In this document: piece by piece, positions 720 to 9,875 of the stretch
Position numbering within the stretch: position 1 is the stretch's first letter
How the letters are laid out: the number at the start of each line of letters is the position of its first letter
Source of the DNA: Thermodesulfovibrionia bacterium
GTDB taxonomy: Bacteria; Nitrospirota; Thermodesulfovibrionia; UBA6902
Length of the DNA stretch: 9,875 nt
NCBI GenBank assembly: GCA_947258735.1
Contig: CAMYJJ010000102.1
Coordinates: 1-9,875, forward strand
Direction of reading: 5' to 3'
Made by a program: the position numbers and the translations under genes
Notes under the pieces: generated by a model
The model's database searches: none
The model's input: the letters and a program-made list of their open reading frames with translations, nothing else
Told to the model about the DNA's origin: nothing

Positions 720-1259
720 TTATGATGAAGAAGGAATGGAATCAGAAAATTTAGGGAAATACAGCGAAAACACAGTTCCTTTTGTCTCTTTGCTCTGAAC
801 GTCCATTCTGCCGTTATGGTTTTCTATTATTTCCTTCACGATACTGAGGCCCAGCCCGTAACCGGTATGGCTGTTCATCTTACCCTGTCTTTCACGGCTC
901 CTTGACGCATCTACCCGGTAGAACCTTTGGAAAATGTTTTCGATTTTGTCTTCCGGTATTCCCATGCCTGTGTCTGTTACCTCTATAACTGCCTCGTTCG
1001 AGGTCTCACCTACTTTCATTATTACGGAACCACCCTCATGAGTGTACTTAAGAGCATTGTCCAGCACATTTATCAGCGCGTCATCAACAGATGGTTTATC
1101 ACCCTGTATACATACATCATTCCGGCAGATAACAGATTCCAGACGTATTCCCTTATTTTTGGCGACCGTTGAAAACATTGAAGTAATGTTACCAGTAATA
1201 TCATTAAGGGAAATTCTCTCTTTTTTCATATGGTATCTATTCTGTTCGAGCCGGGATAA
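720..1259 (-). pseudogene. Sensor histidine kinase remnant (C-terminal ATPase domain only)
   Basis: From the first possible start (ATG 1229-1227) 169 residues are open. They hold a complete HATPase_c domain: N box with LDNALKY (56-62), G1 box DTGMGIP (86-92), F box FQRFYR (100-105) and G2 box GYGLGLSIV (123-131). The dimerisation/phosphotransfer domain with its H-box histidine, and any sensor domain, are absent. Kinase-like sequence continues upstream of that ATG without a start codon: the codons at 1259-1230 read LSRLEQNRYH, which resembles the usual end of the HisKA helix pair. The frame then loses similarity and meets a TGA at 1286-1284, inside the 3' end of the cytochrome gene. No ribosome site precedes the ATG. 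I read it as a 5'-truncated kinase whose front was replaced or deleted. A stand-alone ATPase protein made from the ATG is a less likely alternative. Confidence 0.75.
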
Positions 1260-3004: not shown

Positions 3005-4129
3005 ATGAACCCGTCATACAATAATAATAATGAAAATAAAAGCAGCCTGCTTCGTCTTCTCATAATTCTTACTGCAATAGCTGCCGGCCTCTGGTATCTG
3101 TCATCTCCCGGAAGCCTTTTTGATCCTGAATCAGAACCACGGCCGGTGACAGCCCGGGGCAATCTGGCAGATGACGAACAGAATAACATCGGCCTGTTTG
3201 AGAACACTTCTGCCTCAGTAGTATATATAACAAGTATCGAGTTGAGGAGAAACCTGTTCAGCCTGAATGTGTATGAGATCCCCCAGGGTACGGGATCGGG
3301 ATTTATATGGGACAGGGAAGGGCGAATCGTTACCAATTATCATGTCATTGAAGATGCTAACCGGGTTGAGGTGACCCTGGCCGATCACTCTACCTGGAAG
3401 GGTTCTGTGGTAGGGGTTTCCCCTGACAAGGACCTGGCAGTTCTTCAGATATCAGCGCCTTCTGACAGGCTGCATCCGATCATGATAGGGGAGTCTGATA
3501 ATCTCCAGGTCGGGCAGAAGGTCTTTGCTATTGGCAACCCGTTTGGTCTTGACCAGACCATGACAACAGGAATTGTAAGTGCGTTAGGGAGAGAAATCAA
3601 CTCGGTGTCTGGCAGAACAATTCAGGGAGTGATTCAGACAGACGCAGCCATTAATCCGGGTAATTCGGGAGGGCCGCTGCTTGACAGTGCAGGCAGACTG
3701 ATCGGTATAAATACCGCAATTTACAGTCCATCAGGGGCAAGTGCCGGTATCGGGTTTGCCGTGCCGGTAAATATTGTGAACAGGGTGGTGCCTGAATTAA
3801 TAAAGTACGGACGGGCCATGAAGCCCGGTATCGGAGTGACGATAGCAAACAGTCAGATAACAGGACGCCTTGGAGTTGAGGGAGTTTTATTGATAAATAT
3901 CCAGCCTGGCAGCGCCGCAGAAAAAGCGGGGCTCAGAGGCACAAGAAGAATAGGAAGTGAAATTGTACTTGGAGATATTATCGTCTCAGTAAACAGCAAA
4001 ACAGTATCGACATTTGATGATCTTCTTAATGAATTTGAACGGTATCGTGTAGGTGATGAAGTTGTTCTTGGAATAATCCGTGATGATGCACGGATAGATG
4101 TCAGAATCGCCCTGGAAATGGTTGAGTAG
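3005..4129 (+). CDS. Membrane-anchored HtrA/Deg-like serine protease with PDZ domain
   Basis: The protein has 374 residues. A hydrophobic segment at about 15-33 after a short polar N-terminus acts as a signal anchor or signal peptide, so the enzyme should face the periplasm. The trypsin-like domain (about 66-265) has the full triad: His113 in TNYHVIEDA, Asp143 in DKDLAVLQI and Ser221 in NPGNSGGPL. One PDZ domain follows (about 274-372, with GVLLINIQPGSAAEKAGL and GDIIVSVN). One PDZ domain makes it Deg1/DegS-like rather than DegP-like, which has two. Family members cleave misfolded envelope proteins or signal envelope stress. The start is fixed by an in-frame TAA about 15 nt upstream with no other start codon between, yet no Shine-Dalgarno sequence is present. 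I see no rseA-like substrate gene nearby, so a DegS-type signalling role is unsupported. Confidence 0.92.
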   Translation: MNPSYNNNNENKSSLLRLLIILTAIAAGLWYLSSPGSLFDPESEPRPVTARGNLADDEQNNIGLFENTSASVVYITSIELRRNLFSLNVYEIPQGTGSGFIWDREGRIVTNYHVIEDANRVEVTLADHSTWKGSVVGVSPDKDLAVLQISAPSDRLHPIMIGESDNLQVGQKVFAIGNPFGLDQTMTTGIVSALGREINSVSGRTIQGVIQTDAAINPGNSGGPLLDSAGRLIGINTAIYSPSGASAGIGFAVPVNIVNRVVPELIKYGRAMKPGIGVTIANSQITGRLGVEGVLLINIQPGSAAEKAGLRGTRRIGSEIVLGDIIVSVNSKTVSTFDDLLNEFERYRVGDEVVLGIIRDDARIDVRIALEMVE

Positions 4130-4321: not shown

Positions 4322-4912
4322 ATGATTGTGAAAGATCAGGATAAGAGCAAGGAGCAGCTTGTCTCTGAGCTGGTAGAATTGCGTAACTGGGCCAGAAAGC
4401 TTCAGCATTTATATGATGAGTATGAACAGGCCCTCAAAACATTAAGGTCGTTTGAGAAAGCCCTTGAGACAATGCAGATAGGGGTAACCATCACGGACCT
4501 CAGGGGTAAAATTCTTTATATCAATCCAGCTGATCAGGTGCTGCATGGTTATGAAGGGGTGAACCTGAAAGGAAAAAGCGTTAAACTTTTTGCGCCTGAT
4601 AACAACTGGAAGCCCATGTCCAAAGAGAGAATCCATTCCATGAAAAGATGGAAGAGGGACGGAATCAACAGGAAGAAAGATGGAACTACATTCCCTGTTC
4701 ATATGATGTCTGATGTTGTGACAAATGAAGAAGGTGAGCCCATAGGAATTGTTACCACCTGCGAAGATATTACAGAGCGAAAGAATATGGAAAAGGAACT
4801 CAAGATGAAAGTGGAAGACCTGGAAAAATTTTATGAGATGTCAATTGGCAGGGAAGTCAAGATGAAAGAGCTCAAGAAGGAGATTAAAAGACTTAAGGCG
4901 AATAATACGTGA
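4322..4912 (+). CDS. PAS-domain sensor protein without an output domain
   Basis: The 196-residue soluble protein has three parts: an N-terminal coiled-coil-like helix (about 5-45), one PAS domain (about 46-155) and a charged C-terminal coiled coil (about 152-193). PAS features include GVTITDLRGKILYINPA (54-70), the KKDGTTFPV stretch (118-126) and the closing IVTTCEDITERK (143-154). There is no kinase, cyclase, HTH or receiver part. It may bind a small ligand or cofactor and signal through dimer or partner contacts; no ligand residue can be assigned. The tail REVKMKELKKEIKRLK resembles linkers after PAS domains in larger sensors, so it could descend from a longer kinase, although the gene ends cleanly with a stop. 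The ATG at 4322 has no ribosome site, so the start is less certain. Confidence 0.8.
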   Translation: MIVKDQDKSKEQLVSELVELRNWARKLQHLYDEYEQALKTLRSFEKALETMQIGVTITDLRGKILYINPADQVLHGYEGVNLKGKSVKLFAPDNNWKPMSKERIHSMKRWKRDGINRKKDGTTFPVHMMSDVVTNEEGEPIGIVTTCEDITERKNMEKELKMKVEDLEKFYEMSIGREVKMKELKKEIKRLKANNT

Positions 4913-5001: not shown

Positions 5002-6372
5002 TTAGTGCTGATGTTTTTTTACAACCCCTGCTAGTTTTTGTGCAAAAACCGATAATGTTTCATCCCTTGCCCCGAAAATAATAAAGCTTCTGAAATCGTT
5101 TACCTTTTTACATATATCTTCCCTGTCCTGTAAAACCTCTGCTGATTTCCCTCGGGCAGTGATTTCATCGGCAAGGTCTTCACTTGAAATGTCTTTCCCT
5201 GCTGTTCCTCCCACAAAATATATTGGCAGCAGCACCAGATGATCATCTTCACGAAGATTTTTCACAAAGGTCTCGATATACTCGTTTTTCATCATTCGCG
5301 TGGGACCAAATCCATGGGGCTGATAAATAAAACATATGTTCCTGCTCAGCTTTTGTACGGTCCTCATCATGTACTGTATTTTATGTGGATTGTGCGCATA
5401 GTCGTCAATGACAAATACATCGCCTTCATTCATATGTATATCAAAGCGTCTGTCTATGCCATGGAATTCCGGTAGCATAGTAGCTATGTCAGCAAGTGAT
5501 ATGCCGATTTCTGAAAGAAAGGAAATACATGAAAGTGCATTATACATATTATGCTCGCCCGGGAGAGACAGGCTGAATTTTGTGTTGTGAACGGTAAACT
5601 CAGAGCGTAATGGATGCATCGTTATATGTTCTGCCCTGTAAGCTGATGCAGCATGTATTGAAAATGTAATGGTGCCTTTTTCAGAAATTCCATCAAGATT
5701 TCTGTCATCAGCATTTATCATGATTTTGTCCTGTGTATTTTTAACGAGAGTTTTAAACATCTCAGCAGTATCTTCAATGGAGTGATGGTCAAGAGACAGA
5801 TTAAGAATTATGGTGTGCTGTGGTCTGTAACTGACAATCGAACCGTCTGATTCGCAGGCCTCAATAATCAGGCTGTCTGATGTTCCGACAAGTGAGTTGC
5901 CGGGATGATCATCTGATTTAAACTGTTTTACTCTCCCTCCACCGATGAAATTAGGTTCGAGTCCAAGTCTGCTCATCAGAAAGGCGAGGAGTCCTGAAGC
6001 CGTTGATTTACCGCTCGTGCCGGATACAGCGATTGTTCTGAACGATGCAGTGATTGCTGCGAGATATTCGGGCCTTGATGTTAAAAGAATGCCAAGTTCT
6101 CTGGCCTTGATAATCTCAGGTTTATCATCCTCAACAGCTGTGCTGAAAACCGCAACGTCATATGTCCTGTCCAGACCGCTTCCGTCCTGGGGAAAGATGG
6201 ATATTCCCCTGGACAGGAACACTTTTTTTAAAGGGTGATCCGGATCAAGATCAAATGCCCTGTCAGAGCCGGCAATGACATTTCCTTTATCAGCCATGAA
6301 ACAGGCTATGGCAGATACGCCGCTGCCTGCGATACCTGAGAAAAATATTTTCTTTATCTGATTAGCACTCAT
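5002..6372 (-). CDS. Mur ligase, MurC/Mpl-like (UDP-N-acetylmuramate ligase family)
   Basis: The 456-residue protein has the three Mur ligase domains. The N-terminal nucleotide-sugar domain starts IFFSGIAGSGVSAIA (9-23). The central ATPase has P-loop GTSGKST (118-124), EACESDGS (171-178), LDHH (194-197) and PGEHNMYNALS (271-281). The C-terminal domain has RRFD (308-311), DDYAHNP (323-329) and QPHGFGPTR (351-359). Length and order fit MurC, which adds L-alanine to UDP-N-acetylmuramate in the cytoplasm, or Mpl, which reattaches recycled peptide. The P-loop differs from the GTHGKTT usual in MurC, and no other cell-wall genes are adjacent, so this may be a second, specialised ligase rather than the essential MurC. 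No Shine-Dalgarno sequence precedes the ATG, and the candidate -10 sits 7 nt upstream, so the mRNA may be leaderless. Confidence 0.8.
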   Translation of the reverse strand: MSANQIKKIFFSGIAGSGVSAIACFMADKGNVIAGSDRAFDLDPDHPLKKVFLSRGISIFPQDGSGLDRTYDVAVFSTAVEDDKPEIIKARELGILLTSRPEYLAAITASFRTIAVSGTSGKSTASGLLAFLMSRLGLEPNFIGGGRVKQFKSDDHPGNSLVGTSDSLIIEACESDGSIVSYRPQHTIILNLSLDHHSIEDTAEMFKTLVKNTQDKIMINADDRNLDGISEKGTITFSIHAASAYRAEHITMHPLRSEFTVHNTKFSLSLPGEHNMYNALSCISFLSEIGISLADIATMLPEFHGIDRRFDIHMNEGDVFVIDDYAHNPHKIQYMMRTVQKLSRNICFIYQPHGFGPTRMMKNEYIETFVKNLREDDHLVLLPIYFVGGTAGKDISSEDLADEITARGKSAEVLQDREDICKKVNDFRSFIIFGARDETLSVFAQKLAGVVKKHQH

Positions 6373-6440: not shown

Positions 6441-6520
6441 GTATTCCCGAGGGCAGTTAATCGGATCGCTGCGACCCGCTCAGAGGACCTGCCTACCGGC
6501 AGGCAGGCTGCTGGAATAAC
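6441..6520 (+). repeat. Palindromic intergenic repeat, copy interrupted by a CCTGCCT palindrome
   Basis: The element begins GTATTCCCGAGGGCAG, continues TTAATCGG and later CCCGCTCAGAGGA, and ends CTGGAATAAC, so its ends are imperfect inverted repeats. These blocks match the copy at 8078-8175 in the same order. Compared with that copy, a 20-bp palindrome is present between CAGAGGA and CTG. It lies in the gap between the divergent Mur ligase and activator genes. Confidence 0.65.
6488..6507. repeat. 20-bp palindrome nested in the repeat
   Basis: CCTGCCTACCGGCAGGCAGG: 7-bp perfect arms around ACCGGC, with one mismatched pair near the centre. It is nearly the same as the palindrome at 8101-8121 but lies at a different place in the host repeat. 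Confidence 0.8.
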
Positions 6521-6555
6521 GAATGAATGTGAACTCCCACTCTATTTCCTGATTT

Positions 6556-6563
6556 GATATAAT
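6556..6563 (+). promoter_or_regulatory. Candidate extended -10 promoter for the activator gene
   Basis: TGATATAAT (6555-6563 including the preceding T context) contains a perfect TATAAT at 6558-6563 with the TG dinucleotide of an extended -10 at 6555-6556. No -35 hexamer is recognisable, as extended -10 promoters allow. Transcription would start near 6570, leaving a leader of about 65 nt. Confidence 0.45.
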
Positions 6564-6634
6564 CATGTATTCTTAAATAACTGTTATTATGCGGCCATAC
6601 CATAATCAGAAAGAGTAAGTAAACAACGGTGATT

Positions 6635-8035
6635 ATGAACGAACTTCACAGTTTAAAAGGTCTGTCAGTCCTTGTGATAGATAGTGAGAGTGCAGCTCTT
6701 GACTCAATGGAACAGTCATTGCAGGGGGCAGGGGCCCAGGTAAGCAGGGCACTAACTGTCAAACTGGCGCAGGGTGTTCTTCAAAACAAGGCAATAGACA
6801 TCATCATTGCAGCGCTTGATCTGGTGAATGAGCAGTGCATCGACATGATCAAGGACTATAAGCTGCGCTACCCGGCATGCCTTTTTTACGTTCTTACCGA
6901 TCAGGAATATGAGTCGGTTGAGACGTCCCAGGAATCGGTACGATACATTGTTGATGACTATATAAAAAAACCGCTGAACATAGAACGTTTTGTTGTTATG
7001 GTGGAGACAAGCATGGGAAGGACAATTGCCGGAAGCACGTCATTGACGGTAGTTGACCCTCTGGTGACCAAGGTCAAACCATATTTTCTGTTCCGTTCTC
7101 CTGTCATGCGGCGCGCCCTCACTCACCTTCCGCAGATATCATCCTCTGAGCAGACCGTTCTTATTACCGGAGAGACAGGTTCAGGAAAGGAGATTGTCGC
7201 CAGGGGAATTCATGTGCTCAGCCGCCGCTCATCAGGGCCTTTTGTCCCCATCAACTGCGGAGCTGTGCCTGAAAGCCTGATTGAAGGTGAGCTGTTCGGT
7301 CATGAGAAGGGTGCCTTTACCGGCGCTATTAAGACAAGAAAAGGGAAATTTGAGACTGCTGATAAAGGTACATTATTTCTTGATGAAATCAGCGAGATGC
7401 CCCTTACCCTTCAGGTCAGACTGCTTCGTGTTCTGGAAGACGGGATCATATACCGCGTTGGCGGAGAAGAACCGCTGGATATTGATGTACGGGTTATAGC
7501 AGCATCAAATGTAGACCTTCATAAGGCGGTAAAAGACGGACTGTTTCGGGAGGACCTTTATTACAGGATCAATGTGCTGCGTATTCACCTTCCCCCATTA
7601 CGGGAACGGATTGAGGACATACCTCTTCTGGCGGTCCATTTTCTTGAAAGGGCCTTTGTCGAGATGGGATGGGAACCTCCTTTTCCCAGCCTCTCTGCAG
7701 AAACAATATATGTGCTGGAGCAATATAAATGGAAAGGAAATGTTCGTGAACTGAGAAACATTATGACCCGCATTGCTACACTGCTTCCTCAGAACACCAA
7801 ACGGATTTTCCCGCATCATATCCTTCCCCATATAGAAGATGCAGATCGTGTAAAAGCTGCTCAACAGTATGAGTCTGCACCGGATGGTGTGTTCATTCCG
7901 CTTGGTACGCCCATGAAAAAAGTGGAAGACATCATGATTAAAGAGGCATTGAAACAGACCAACGGCAATAAAACAAAAGCAGCTGAAATTCTTGGCATCA
8001 GCCTGAGAAATCTCCGGAGAAAAATCAATAAGTAA
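6635..8035 (+). CDS. Sigma-54-dependent activator (NtrC family) with degenerate receiver
   Basis: This 466-residue protein has the three-part NtrC layout. The AAA+ domain (about 150-385) carries Walker A GETGSGKE (179-186), the sigma-54-contacting loop GAFTGA (226-231), Walker B TLFLDEI (246-252) and the arginine-finger region REDLYYRINV. A Fis-type helix-turn-helix (about 433-464, ending NKTKAAEILGISLRNLRRK) should bind an upstream activating sequence. The N-terminal 125 residues have a receiver fold but lack key residues: the VIDSES strand keeps one of the paired acids, and the position of the phosphorylated Asp is Ala60 in DIIIAA, while the lysine of IKKP and a threonine (VLTD) remain. It is therefore probably not switched by ordinary phosphorylation. 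An in-frame GTG at 6629 would add two residues; ATG 6635 is preferred. The closest downstream unit is a small heat-shock operon with a -24/-12 promoter, its likely target. Confidence 0.92.
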   Translation: MNELHSLKGLSVLVIDSESAALDSMEQSLQGAGAQVSRALTVKLAQGVLQNKAIDIIIAALDLVNEQCIDMIKDYKLRYPACLFYVLTDQEYESVETSQESVRYIVDDYIKKPLNIERFVVMVETSMGRTIAGSTSLTVVDPLVTKVKPYFLFRSPVMRRALTHLPQISSSEQTVLITGETGSGKEIVARGIHVLSRRSSGPFVPINCGAVPESLIEGELFGHEKGAFTGAIKTRKGKFETADKGTLFLDEISEMPLTLQVRLLRVLEDGIIYRVGGEEPLDIDVRVIAASNVDLHKAVKDGLFREDLYYRINVLRIHLPPLRERIEDIPLLAVHFLERAFVEMGWEPPFPSLSAETIYVLEQYKWKGNVRELRNIMTRIATLLPQNTKRIFPHHILPHIEDADRVKAAQQYESAPDGVFIPLGTPMKKVEDIMIKEALKQTNGNKTKAAEILGISLRNLRRKINK

Positions 8036-8077
8036 GTAGTTATGAGTATTGTTTGTCCATAAATTGCCACTTTTTTT

Positions 8078-8175
8078 GTCATGCCGAAAGCCTTAATCGG
8101 GCCTGCCTGCGGTAGGCAGGCACCCAGAGCTCAGCGAAAACACTGGATTCCCGCTCAAAGGACTATGGGAATGAC
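8078..8175 (+). repeat. Palindromic intergenic repeat, longest copy (98 bp)
   Basis: It starts GTCATGCC and ends GGGAATGAC, forming imperfect terminal inverted repeats. Inside are TTAATCGGG, an inserted palindrome, ACCCAGAG, and TGGATTCCCGC...GGGAAT, where ATTCCC and GGGAAT can pair. It lies in the 381-bp gap (8036-8416) between the activator and the sHSP operon. A run of seven T's precedes it. No open frame is encoded, so it is a small non-coding element, possibly mobilised in trans. Confidence 0.7.
8101..8121. repeat. Palindrome nested in the 98-bp repeat
   Basis: GCCTGCCT (8101-8108), five bases, then AGGCAGGC (8114-8121): 8-bp perfect arms. The uninterrupted copy at 2918 reads TCGGGAATCCAGA across this point, so the palindrome interrupts the host element between GGG and the CCAGA block. 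Confidence 0.8.
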
Positions 8176-8213
8176 GGTTCAGTATTTGAATGTATAGAAA
8201 GACTCTTATTATT

Positions 8214-8234
8214 CCTGATCAGGTCAAATTAACC
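8214..8234. promoter_or_regulatory. Overlapping inverted repeats upstream of the sHSP operon (possible activator site)
   Basis: CCTGATCAGG (8214-8223) is a perfect 10-bp palindrome. Overlapping it is GGTCAAATTAACC (8222-8234), an inverted repeat with five of six pairs. They lie about 130-150 bp upstream of the expected sigma-54 start of transcription, within the usual range for enhancer-type activator sites. That the activator binds here is inference. Confidence 0.35.
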
Positions 8235-8256
8235 TACAGGCCATAATAGCCTAGCG

Positions 8257-8272
8257 AATATGGGTCAATATG
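8257..8272 (+). promoter_or_regulatory. Direct repeat AATATG, one helical turn apart
   Basis: AATATG occurs at 8257-8262 and 8267-8272, exactly 10 bp apart, roughly 100 bp upstream of the expected start of transcription. It could be a tandem protein-binding site, but six bases repeated once in an AT-rich gap may be chance. Confidence 0.2.
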
Positions 8273-8339
8273 TCCTCTTAGCTCATTCAAGATTAAGTCC
8301 ACCCTTCATAACAACTTGAATTTAAATGATTTTAAATAC

Positions 8340-8355
8340 TGGTATCTGTCTTGCA
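8340..8355 (+). promoter_or_regulatory. Sigma-54 (-24/-12) promoter of the sHSP operon
   Basis: TGGTATCTGTCTTGCA fits the sigma-54 consensus TGGCACRNNNNTTGCW at the TGG, one internal A and the whole TTGCA, with the required 10 bases between GG (8341-8342) and GC (8353-8354). Transcription would start near 8366, about 50 nt before the first sHSP codon. No convincing sigma-70 or sigma-32 promoter was found in the same gap, and an NtrC-type activator is encoded directly upstream. Confidence 0.65.
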
Positions 8356-8400
8356 TTATAACTGGCGTAATGAGCAAAAAAAGAGATAATTAAAATATAG

Positions 8401-8410
8401 AAGGAGGGTG
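8401..8410 (+). promoter_or_regulatory. Ribosome binding site of sHSP 1, fixes the start at ATG 8417
   Basis: AAGGAGGGTGATC (8401-8413) is almost the full complement of the 16S rRNA tail, with one extra G. The in-frame GTG at 8408 lies inside this site and cannot be its own start; the ATG is 9 nt after AGGAGG. Confidence 0.85.
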
Positions 8411-8416
8411 ATCATT

Positions 8417-8842
8417 ATGTTATGGACAGAATTTAACAACACATTTATAGACCCCTGGCGTGAGTTTGAGAGACTGAACAGGATGTTTCAACGAGTACCA
8501 GCGCAGAGGTCCTGTGAATTTCCGGCTATCAACCTTTGGGTAGACTCGGACCGTTCAATAGTGACTACAGAGATTCCGGGCATTGAACCTGATGATATAG
8601 AGATCTCTGTCATTGAAAAATCACTAACGTTGCGCGGCACGCGCAAGGCCGATGACCTTAAGGAGAACGAGGCCTTCCACAGGAGAGAGCGCTGGCACGG
8701 ACAGTTCTCTAAAACGATTGAGCTTCCTTTCAGGGTTGAGACAGCAAAGGTAAATGCCTCATTTAAGAAAGGGACACTCTACATTACACTGCCGCGGGCA
8801 GAAGAAGAAAAGCCGAAAAAGATAGAAATTAAATCAGAATAG
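8417..8842 (+). CDS. Small heat-shock protein (Hsp20/alpha-crystallin family), first of three
   Basis: This is a 141-residue ATP-independent holdase-type chaperone. The N-terminal arm (1-35) is aromatic (LWTEF, WREFERL) and typical of oligomerising sHSP tails. The alpha-crystallin domain (about 36-127) includes TEIPGIEPDDIEISV (51-65), the HRRERWHGQFSKTIELP stretch (88-104) and the signature KKGTLYITLP (117-126). The C-terminal IEI (136-138) is the I-x-I/V motif that docks into a neighbouring subunit. Members bind unfolding proteins and hand them to Hsp70/ClpB systems in the cytoplasm. Its stop codon (8840-8842) overlaps the ribosome site of the next gene, so the two are probably translated together. 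The sequence differs clearly from sHSP 2 and 3, so the trio is not a recent tandem copy. Confidence 0.93.
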   Translation: MLWTEFNNTFIDPWREFERLNRMFQRVPAQRSCEFPAINLWVDSDRSIVTTEIPGIEPDDIEISVIEKSLTLRGTRKADDLKENEAFHRRERWHGQFSKTIELPFRVETAKVNASFKKGTLYITLPRAEEEKPKKIEIKSE

Positions 8843-8850
8843 GGAGGTGA
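8842..8850 (+). promoter_or_regulatory. Ribosome binding site of sHSP 2, fixes the start at ATG 8856
   Basis: GGGAGGTGA (8842-8850) overlaps the stop codon of sHSP 1. An in-frame GTG at 8847 is part of this site, so the ATG at 8856 is the start. Confidence 0.85.
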
Positions 8851-8855
8851 GCAAC

Positions 8856-9263
8856 ATGACAGTAGCTGCTAAAGAAGTAGAAAAAAAGGAAGCAAAACTC
8901 CATGAAGGAGTAGAGAGGACCAGGGCAAAAAGGGTATATAAACCTGCAGTTGATATTATTGAAAAAAATGAGGACATATATCTGTTAGCTGATATGCCCG
9001 GTGTTGATAATGAAAGCGTAGAAGTAACGCTTGAAAAAGACACCCTTACCATATACGGGAAGGTCGAGCCTGAAATCCCCGAGGGAATGAGGCTCACCGG
9101 ATCAGAATATGGTGTAGGCGATTTCCAGAGGACCTTCACCCTGTCTGATGAAATAGACAGGGAAAAGATACAGGCTTCGGTTAAAAACGGGGTATTGAGA
9201 CTTACCCTGCCCAAAGCCGAAGCAGTAAAGACAAGAAAAATTCCGGTCAGGGCAGAAGCCTGA
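8856..9263 (+). CDS. Small heat-shock protein (Hsp20 family), second of three
   Basis: The 135-residue protein has a short, strongly charged N-terminal arm (MTVAAKEVEKKEAKLHEG) without the aromatic residues of its two neighbours, then an alpha-crystallin domain (about 30-120) with LLADMPGVDNESVEVTLE (43-60) and NGVLRLTLPK (111-120). The C-terminal docking motif is IPV (129-131). The arginine-rich R-x-Y-G-x-F stretch before the last strands is replaced by EYGVGDFQRTFTL (84-96). The charged arm and altered stretch suggest different oligomer or substrate behaviour, for example as a co-chaperone in mixed assemblies (inference). Thirteen bases separate it from sHSP 1. Confidence 0.92.
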   Translation: MTVAAKEVEKKEAKLHEGVERTRAKRVYKPAVDIIEKNEDIYLLADMPGVDNESVEVTLEKDTLTIYGKVEPEIPEGMRLTGSEYGVGDFQRTFTLSDEIDREKIQASVKNGVLRLTLPKAEAVKTRKIPVRAEA

Positions 9264-9265
9264 GG

Positions 9266-9276
9266 AAAGGAGGTGA
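9266..9276 (+). promoter_or_regulatory. Ribosome binding site of sHSP 3, fixes the start at ATG 9282
   Basis: AAAGGAGGTGA (9266-9276), GGAGG 8 nt before the ATG. The in-frame GTG at 9273 lies inside the site. Confidence 0.85.
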
Positions 9277-9281
9277 GAGGT

Positions 9282-9776
9282 ATGTCATTCAGAGATTTGA
9301 GTTTATTCAGGAAAAAAAGTGTCCCGGTAAAGCGTGCGGCTCATGATCCGTTTTCACTGATGCATCGCGATATGGACAACCTCTTTGATGATTTTTTTAA
9401 AGGGTTTGATCTGGAGCCGTTCTTCGGACCGGACGTCAGTGCATACTCTCCCAAAATTGATGTAAAAGAGGGAGACAAGGAGATCAAGGTGCTGGCAGAA
9501 CTTCCGGGAATGGACGAAAAGGACATCAACGTTACTCTTAATAAGGATTCTCTTACGCTGAAAGGTGAAAAAAGGGAAGAGAAAGAGGACAATGACAAAG
9601 GATATCATCGTCTTGAACGTTCATACGGATCATTCTGCAGGACAATTCCACTTCCTGTTGAAATAGAAAAAGAAAAGGTATCGGCCAGTTACAAAAAAGG
9701 GATACTGACCATTACCATTCCCAAAAGTAAAAAGGCGATTGAAGAGAAGAAAAAAATAACGATTGAAGTTGAGTAG
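9282..9776 (+). CDS. Small heat-shock protein (Hsp20 family), third of three
   Basis: The longest of the trio at 164 residues. The N-terminal arm (1-56) is phenylalanine-rich (DNLFDDFFKGFDLEPFFG, 32-49), the common bacterial class A pattern. The alpha-crystallin domain (about 57-148) shows VLAELPGMDEKDINVTL (70-86), YHRLERSYGSFCRTIPLP (108-125) and KKGILTITIPK (138-148). The tail ends ITIEVE, giving I-x-I and I-x-V docking options. It is closest to the canonical Hsp20 sequence and probably carries the general aggregation-preventing activity. The gene starts 18 nt after sHSP 2, and the terminator follows 24 nt after its stop, so it closes the operon. Confidence 0.95.
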   Translation: MSFRDLSLFRKKSVPVKRAAHDPFSLMHRDMDNLFDDFFKGFDLEPFFGPDVSAYSPKIDVKEGDKEIKVLAELPGMDEKDINVTLNKDSLTLKGEKREEKEDNDKGYHRLERSYGSFCRTIPLPVEIEKEKVSASYKKGILTITIPKSKKAIEEKKKITIEVE

Positions 9777-9800
9777 GTAATGCGAATGTCGGAGACGTTG

Positions 9801-9836
9801 CCGGCCCTTTCCCTCATCAGGGAAGGGGCCGGTTTT
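9801..9836 (+). terminator. Intrinsic terminator of the sHSP operon
   Basis: CCGGCCCTTTCCCT (9801-9814) pairs with AGGGAAGGGGCCGG (9819-9832) over 14 positions, one of them G-U, around a CATC loop. TTTTATTA follows. This is the only clear rho-independent terminator in the window. Confidence 0.92.
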
Positions 9837-9875
9837 ATTATGGCCATTTAGAATTCAAGTTTACTTAATCCGGCA

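Follow-up and report, generated by a model that had tools for sequence, protein, structure and literature searches.

The activator–Hsp20 locus

The window analysed here, that is, the whole 9,875-nucleotide stretch of contig CAMYJJ010000102.1 from a Thermodesulfovibrionia bacterium, carries on its plus strand a gene for an NtrC-type enhancer-binding activator (6635..8035), three genes for small heat-shock proteins (sHSPs) of the Hsp20 family (8417..8842, 8856..9263 and 9282..9776) and an intrinsic terminator-like hairpin of 15 pairs (9800..9833). The activator stop codon lies at 8035 and the ATG of the first sHSP gene at 8417; the 381-bp gap between them holds a sigma-54 -24/-12 promoter element, TGGTATCTGTCTTGCA (8340..8355, plus strand), in which GG at 8341–8342 is separated by N10 from GC at 8353–8354. 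A first-pass annotation of this DNA had pointed to these features, namely an activator with an intact GAFTGA loop, a GG-N10-GC promoter in a 381-bp gap, and three consecutive Hsp20 genes with a strong terminator on a single strand, and our analysis recovered each of them. The activator, 466 residues long from the ATG at 6635 (a GTG start at 6629 is possible), matches the Sigma54_activat (PF00158, 229.9 bits), AAA lid and HTH_8 models; with Walker A GETGSGKE and GAFTGA in its AAA+ domain and a Fis-type helix-turn-helix at the C-terminus (PF02954, 50.8 bits), it has the hallmarks of a bacterial enhancer-binding protein (bEBP). The sHSP open reading frames (ORFs; alternative starts 8408/8417, 8847/8856 and 9273/9282) score 69.3, 68.4 and 84.9 bits against PF00011 (cut-off 20.8), which identifies an alpha-crystallin domain in each. 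Rfam returned nothing in the window at gathering scores.

Upstream of the -24/-12 element lie three palindromes of the form GGNCANNNTGNCC, which we regard as candidate upstream activator sequences (UAS). All on the plus strand, GGTCAAATTAACC (8222..8234), GGCCATAATAGCC (8239..8251) and GGTCAATATGTCC (8263..8275) match 7, 7 and 8 of the 8 fixed bases and lie 118, 101 and 77 bp upstream of the -24 start, and three UAS were found in none of 5000 shuffles of the gap. A site resembling that of integration host factor (IHF), TAACAACTTGAAT (8309..8321, plus strand), matches 8 of 9 bases of the IHF consensus and lies 31 bp upstream of the -24 start; by itself it is not significant, an equally good match being present in 18% of shuffles. 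The -24/-12 element taken alone is likewise only suggestive: TGGYAN6TTGC occurs once in the window against 0.14 expected, and because 26 of 200 shuffled windows contain at least one, it is weak evidence until relatives are considered.

Conservation in related genomes and control loci

Homologues were sought with the first 155 residues of the activator as query; 7997 candidates were scored, and at least 73 proteins, including that of the window, were found at 44–100% identity. Relatives entered the comparison through the Nitrospirae record L061, which came from a six-peptide look-up otherwise swamped by other activators and whose genome encodes an ortholog of 59% identity with two Hsp20 genes downstream. 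Of the 47 genomes of one Nitrospirae order, 27 had a single activator ortholog each (E ≤ 1e-120), and orthologs occurred in 45 of 395 genomes of a phylum sample (E ≤ 1e-130). Samples of two other phyla, which held no positive control, gave no match at E ≤ 1e-120 in 297 and 188 genomes. The closest activators compared, those of G021 and G022, share 87–89% identity with that of the window, from which we infer that the window belongs to the same order. The sigma-54 gene rpoN was detected in 46 of the 47 genomes of this order.

The first-pass annotation had made its interpretation depend on whether the activator–sHSP adjacency and the GG-N10-GC element are kept in relatives, and both are. Fifty-six distinct genomes carrying the activator were compared, 27 from the order and 29 from elsewhere in the phylum, and 34 of them have Hsp20 genes no more than 3 kb downstream, in the same orientation. 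In 29 of these the activator–Hsp20 gap measures 128–307 bp; the other five gaps are 422, 492, 570, 805 and 2733 bp, of which that of 570 bp (L115) is counted from a broken activator frame. We scored L165 (2.7-kb gap) as adjacent and L103, whose Hsp20 frames, about 1.2 kb away, are broken, as non-adjacent. By script, 33 of the 34 adjacent loci carry a (T/C/A)GG(C/T)A...TG element; the 34th, L101, scored negative because the script picked an ATG upstream of or inside the element, and was recognized by separate inspection. Strict GG-N10-GC is found in 26 of the 34. Within the order, the activator and the second sHSP co-occur (23 genomes with both, 4 with the activator only, 5 with the sHSP only and 15 with neither; Fisher p 5.5e-5), and G022, one of the four activator-only genomes, has the first sHSP at the end of a contig.

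The region ahead of the promoter is conserved as well. At least two copies of GGNCANNNTGNCC, matching at 7 or all 8 of the fixed bases, precede the -24/-12 element in 27 of the 34 adjacent loci and at least one in 33, with starts often about 120, 102 and 77 bp ahead of the -24 start and variants displaced by about one DNA turn. In the interval from the nearest UAS to the -24 box, 29 of 48 promoters, that of the window included, have their best IHF-like match on the same strand and 30–32 bp ahead of the -24 start; a match reaching 8 of 9 bases is present in 22 of 48, against 6.8 expected from shuffles. Because promoters of relatives are not independent, we take this register as support and attach no probability to it. 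Judged from this comparison, the palindromes and the IHF-like site in near-fixed register would complete a sigma-54 enhancer layout. In the portion of PMC7962754 that reports it, the Geobacter Hsp20 gene GSU2408 is among the genes whose expression changed in a study of IHF, which we regard as a lead only. Autoregulation through the same UAS was considered and rejected, sites upstream of the activator being scattered in some genomes and absent from the window.

It is extremely improbable that the -24/-12 match of the window is due to chance and that a promoter of the sigma-70 or sigma-32 type drives the operon. The shuffles described above show how readily the element alone turns up, but in relatives it is found repeatedly ahead of the sHSP start, with a nearly constant spacing to the UAS, and the sigma-70-like sites listed for 6500–9875 all lie on the opposite strand. 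A sigma-70 promoter for the gap, with no coding-strand site listed, was dropped as a candidate.

We derived the UAS consensus by eye from the adjacent loci, window included, and Hsp20 operons elsewhere therefore provide a fair test; loci away from the activator and loci from the rest of the phylum served as the hold-out. Scan rules vary among the tallies, each count being valid under its own rule. Under one rule, the joint element (-24/-12 with at least two UAS) was present in 27 of 30 second-sHSP loci of the order, and in 12 of 13 of those not adjoining a detected activator, the miss (L127) lying at a contig edge; L129, with a weaker UAS, also misses it. The same rule found the joint element at none of 30 groES and none of 30 clpB loci, taken among the matches listed (44 for groES) from genomes with and without the activator, while CIRCE-like sites (controlling inverted repeat of chaperone expression) were found at 28 of the groES and 1 of the clpB loci. 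As a further control, 89 loci of other activators gave one joint match in 1.88 Mb of strand sequence. In the 22 non-adjacent genomes, the Hsp20 loci examined, elsewhere or farther on, carried the element plus two or more UAS in 14 cases, with one UAS in 1 (G346), the element only in 3 and neither in 4. The 14 comprise a separate Hsp20 operon in seven genomes of the order (G017, G018, G025, G027, G028, G029 and G040), the broken Hsp20 of L103, and G369, G283, G134 and G388, together with G113 and G359, where the spacing is wider.

Taken together, these data point to a sigma-54-dependent sHSP regulon with a cognate bEBP, a reading to which we assign a probability of roughly 0.86, and the arrangement, which appears to take the place of the usual heat-shock controls for sHSPs, recurs in many related genomes. 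Several observations weigh against it. No intact Hsp20 gene lies downstream of the activator, within the stretch examined, in 22 of the 56 genomes; five genomes carry the second sHSP with no detected activator, and the Fisher test takes no account of kinship or of incomplete assemblies. The sites themselves are not uniform: the -12 is GA or GT in 8 of 34 promoters, 7 of them outside the order, the -24 half of the window, TGGTATC, deviates from the sigma-54 consensus TGGCACG, and two of the window's three UAS carry one mismatch. In L126, from G021, a close relative of the window, just one UAS is strong and the joint element is not scored under the rule. Beyond this, G209, G367 and G329 have a -24/-12 element with no UAS of the GGNCANNNTGNCC type, and the loci examined of G049, G039, G204 and G354 (one Hsp20 pair of G354 being left out) show no sigma-54-type Hsp20 promoter.

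The 22 genomes in which no detected Hsp20 gene adjoins the activator would also fit an activator that is a broader stress regulator, with the sHSP operon only one of many targets, as would the single full UAS match preceding the activator gene in L092, L095 and L193. We hold this to be possible though somewhat unlikely, given the recurring activator–Hsp20 adjacency and a joint element that is absent at the 30 groES and 30 clpB loci and nearly absent at the 89 control loci. That a different bEBP acts at the UAS, the neighbouring activator controlling something else, we consider very unlikely: many related regulators exist per genome (35 matches of any strength in G001) and some sHSP operons have no detected ortholog, but adjacency is conserved, co-occurrence is found, and the form of the UAS is retained where activator and operon are apart.

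Some irregular loci deserve mention. The activator frame is interrupted in the assemblies of both L115 and L116. In L131 (G020), a full-element Hsp20 operon follows a piece that matches only the last 124 residues of the activator (52%), the remainder being unmatched. Hsp20 operons L276, L280 and L277 have a -24/-12 element and no UAS of the GGNCANNNTGNCC type, perhaps reflecting an altered binding site. Within the window gap, about 100 bp (8078–8175; GTCATGCC ... GGGAATGAC) resemble by eye a repetitive extragenic palindrome or a miniature inverted-repeat transposable element, an insert that accounts partly for a gap exceeding that of most relatives; one 19-mer of it has no exact match in 288 loci, and its ends are not listed as an inverted repeat. 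A Mur-ligase-like gene (5002–6372, minus strand) is divergent from the activator in the window, as it is in L091, L092, L094, L095, L100, L101 and L115.

A receiver-like domain without its acceptor aspartate

The N-terminal domain of the activator is a degenerate receiver. Its Response_reg match is marginal (31.1 bits, cut-off 30.2), and the protein misses the equivalog cut-offs of both NtrC (NR(I); 373.6 vs 558.6 bits) and PspF (280.9 vs 443.55 bits). The acceptor Asp of NtrC1 aligns with Ala60, which on this count places the protein outside the Group I bEBPs, those that are phosphorylated response regulators. At this position, 72 homologous proteins have 62 Ala, 7 Ser and 1 Asp, and 53 genome orthologs have 17 Ala, 18 Ser and 11 Asp, compared with Asp in 74 of 75 control activators; each of the 11 Asp-retaining orthologs comes from a genome outside the order. 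We used only the receiver-like part of the AlphaFold model, which has a mean pLDDT (predicted local distance difference test) of 60.4 and is poor over the AAA+ part; residues ~10–80 form an alternating receiver fold at good confidence.

Since the Asp is replaced in most homologues, phosphorylation at the acceptor position is predicted to be unusable by most of the family, and the trigger is probably not classical phosphorylation. An ordinary two-component output, in which a histidine kinase phosphorylates the receiver as usual, would agree with the preserved receiver fold, with a mostly kept Lys and with the Asp of the 11 genome orthologs, but it is distinctly unlikely in view of Ala60, of the residues found in the homologues as against the controls, and of a window with no complete kinase gene. 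We favour an input other than phosphorylation; because the receiver lacks the acceptor Asp, contact with a protein or ligand is the likelier signal. One tentative and rather doubtful version is that the dead receiver is itself the stress sensor and binds sHSPs or unfolded protein directly, free chaperone keeping the activator off and client load releasing it, which would make a sigma-54, ATP-driven heat-shock circuit with no kinase, repressor or alternative heat-shock sigma factor. The family may in any case offer a natural example of a receiver that has lost its phospho-acceptor yet kept its apparent targets, and so inform how such domains become rewired.

Elsewhere in the window, a 169-residue ORF (720–1229, minus strand) covers just the ATPase portion of a histidine kinase and is possibly a truncated kinase; it lies directly downstream of a cytochrome c gene (1279–2037, two CxxCH motifs). 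A stand-alone PAS protein in which no output domain was found (4322–4912) is encoded near an HtrA-type protease (3005–4129).

Proposed mechanism and known systems

The mechanism we propose builds on the orthology, adjacency, promoter, UAS and UAS spacing brought out by the comparison. The activator would bind the palindromes ~77–120 bp upstream of the -24/-12 element, and a bend introduced by an IHF-like protein at a near-fixed position would let the bound activator touch sigma-54 RNA polymerase. Its AAA+ GAFTGA motor would then open the promoter, so that the sHSP genes, presumably the main target, are made as one operon in response to a signal received by the receiver-like domain. Sigma-54 promoters are silent without their activator, and sHSPs placed under one would therefore gain tight control by a signal of their own. 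If this is true, the sHSP set in these bacteria is regulated apart from the CIRCE-type control found at groES. The UAS, IHF-like site and -24/-12 element are explicit enough for direct testing.

As far as comparison can tell, the interpretation in the first-pass annotation is supported as largely right; that the module is "self-contained" and the activator "dedicated" are properties that we infer. To that annotation our analysis adds the UAS, the IHF-like site, the loss of the acceptor Asp, the difference from the CIRCE-bearing groES loci and the breadth across Nitrospirae.

HrcA/CIRCE, which acts by repression, is present in the same order, as judged from the CIRCE-like sites at groES, whereas the sHSP operons carry a sigma-54 activation layout instead. 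Another system for comparison is the phage shock system, in which a single bEBP, PspF, is encoded beside a sigma-54 stress operon with UAS, as here; PspF, however, has no receiver and targets membrane-stress proteins rather than Hsp20, whereas the activator described here bears a receiver and scores below the PspF cut-off. HsfA/HsfB of Myxococcus xanthus, a two-component pair that controls lonD, a protease target, resembles our system in linking an NtrC-type regulator to heat-shock genes. The pair is named in a passage of PMC9548883, and no ortholog of the window activator family was found among 188 genomes sampled from the phylum of G421, to which a Myxococcales record gave entry. For an input other than phosphorylation there is precedent in Vibrio DctD, a receiver-bearing activator that, according to the abstract of PMC11077940, is switched on by a protein partner, dephospho-IIAGlc, without phosphorylation; DctD is phosphorylatable, whereas the window activator has lost the Asp itself.

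A search of titles and abstract openings, a scope outside which most subscription papers fall, found no report of an activator–Hsp20 sigma-54 system. Hsp20 is absent from the main text of a Desulfovibrio regulome paper (PMC4641369). A 2025 survey, in the part that concerns us, predicts sigma-54 control for a chaperone group that includes IbpA, with enrichment in Planctomycetota and Bacteroidota, and its main text contains no word starting with Nitrospir (PMC12316311). One precedent, which the first-pass annotation had already named, is E. coli ibpB, stated in a passage of PMC4370416 to be transcribed by sigma-54; the common feature, as far as that passage goes, is transcription of a small heat-shock gene by sigma-54 RNA polymerase. 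The ibpAB genes are also transcribed by sigma-32, whereas no sigma-70-like site is listed on the coding strand of the window gap, and in the present case an adjacent activator gene and conserved UAS are found repeatedly across the phylum. Sigma-54 control of sHSP genes already has precedent, and we judge the system in the window to be a variant of it with a cognate activator.

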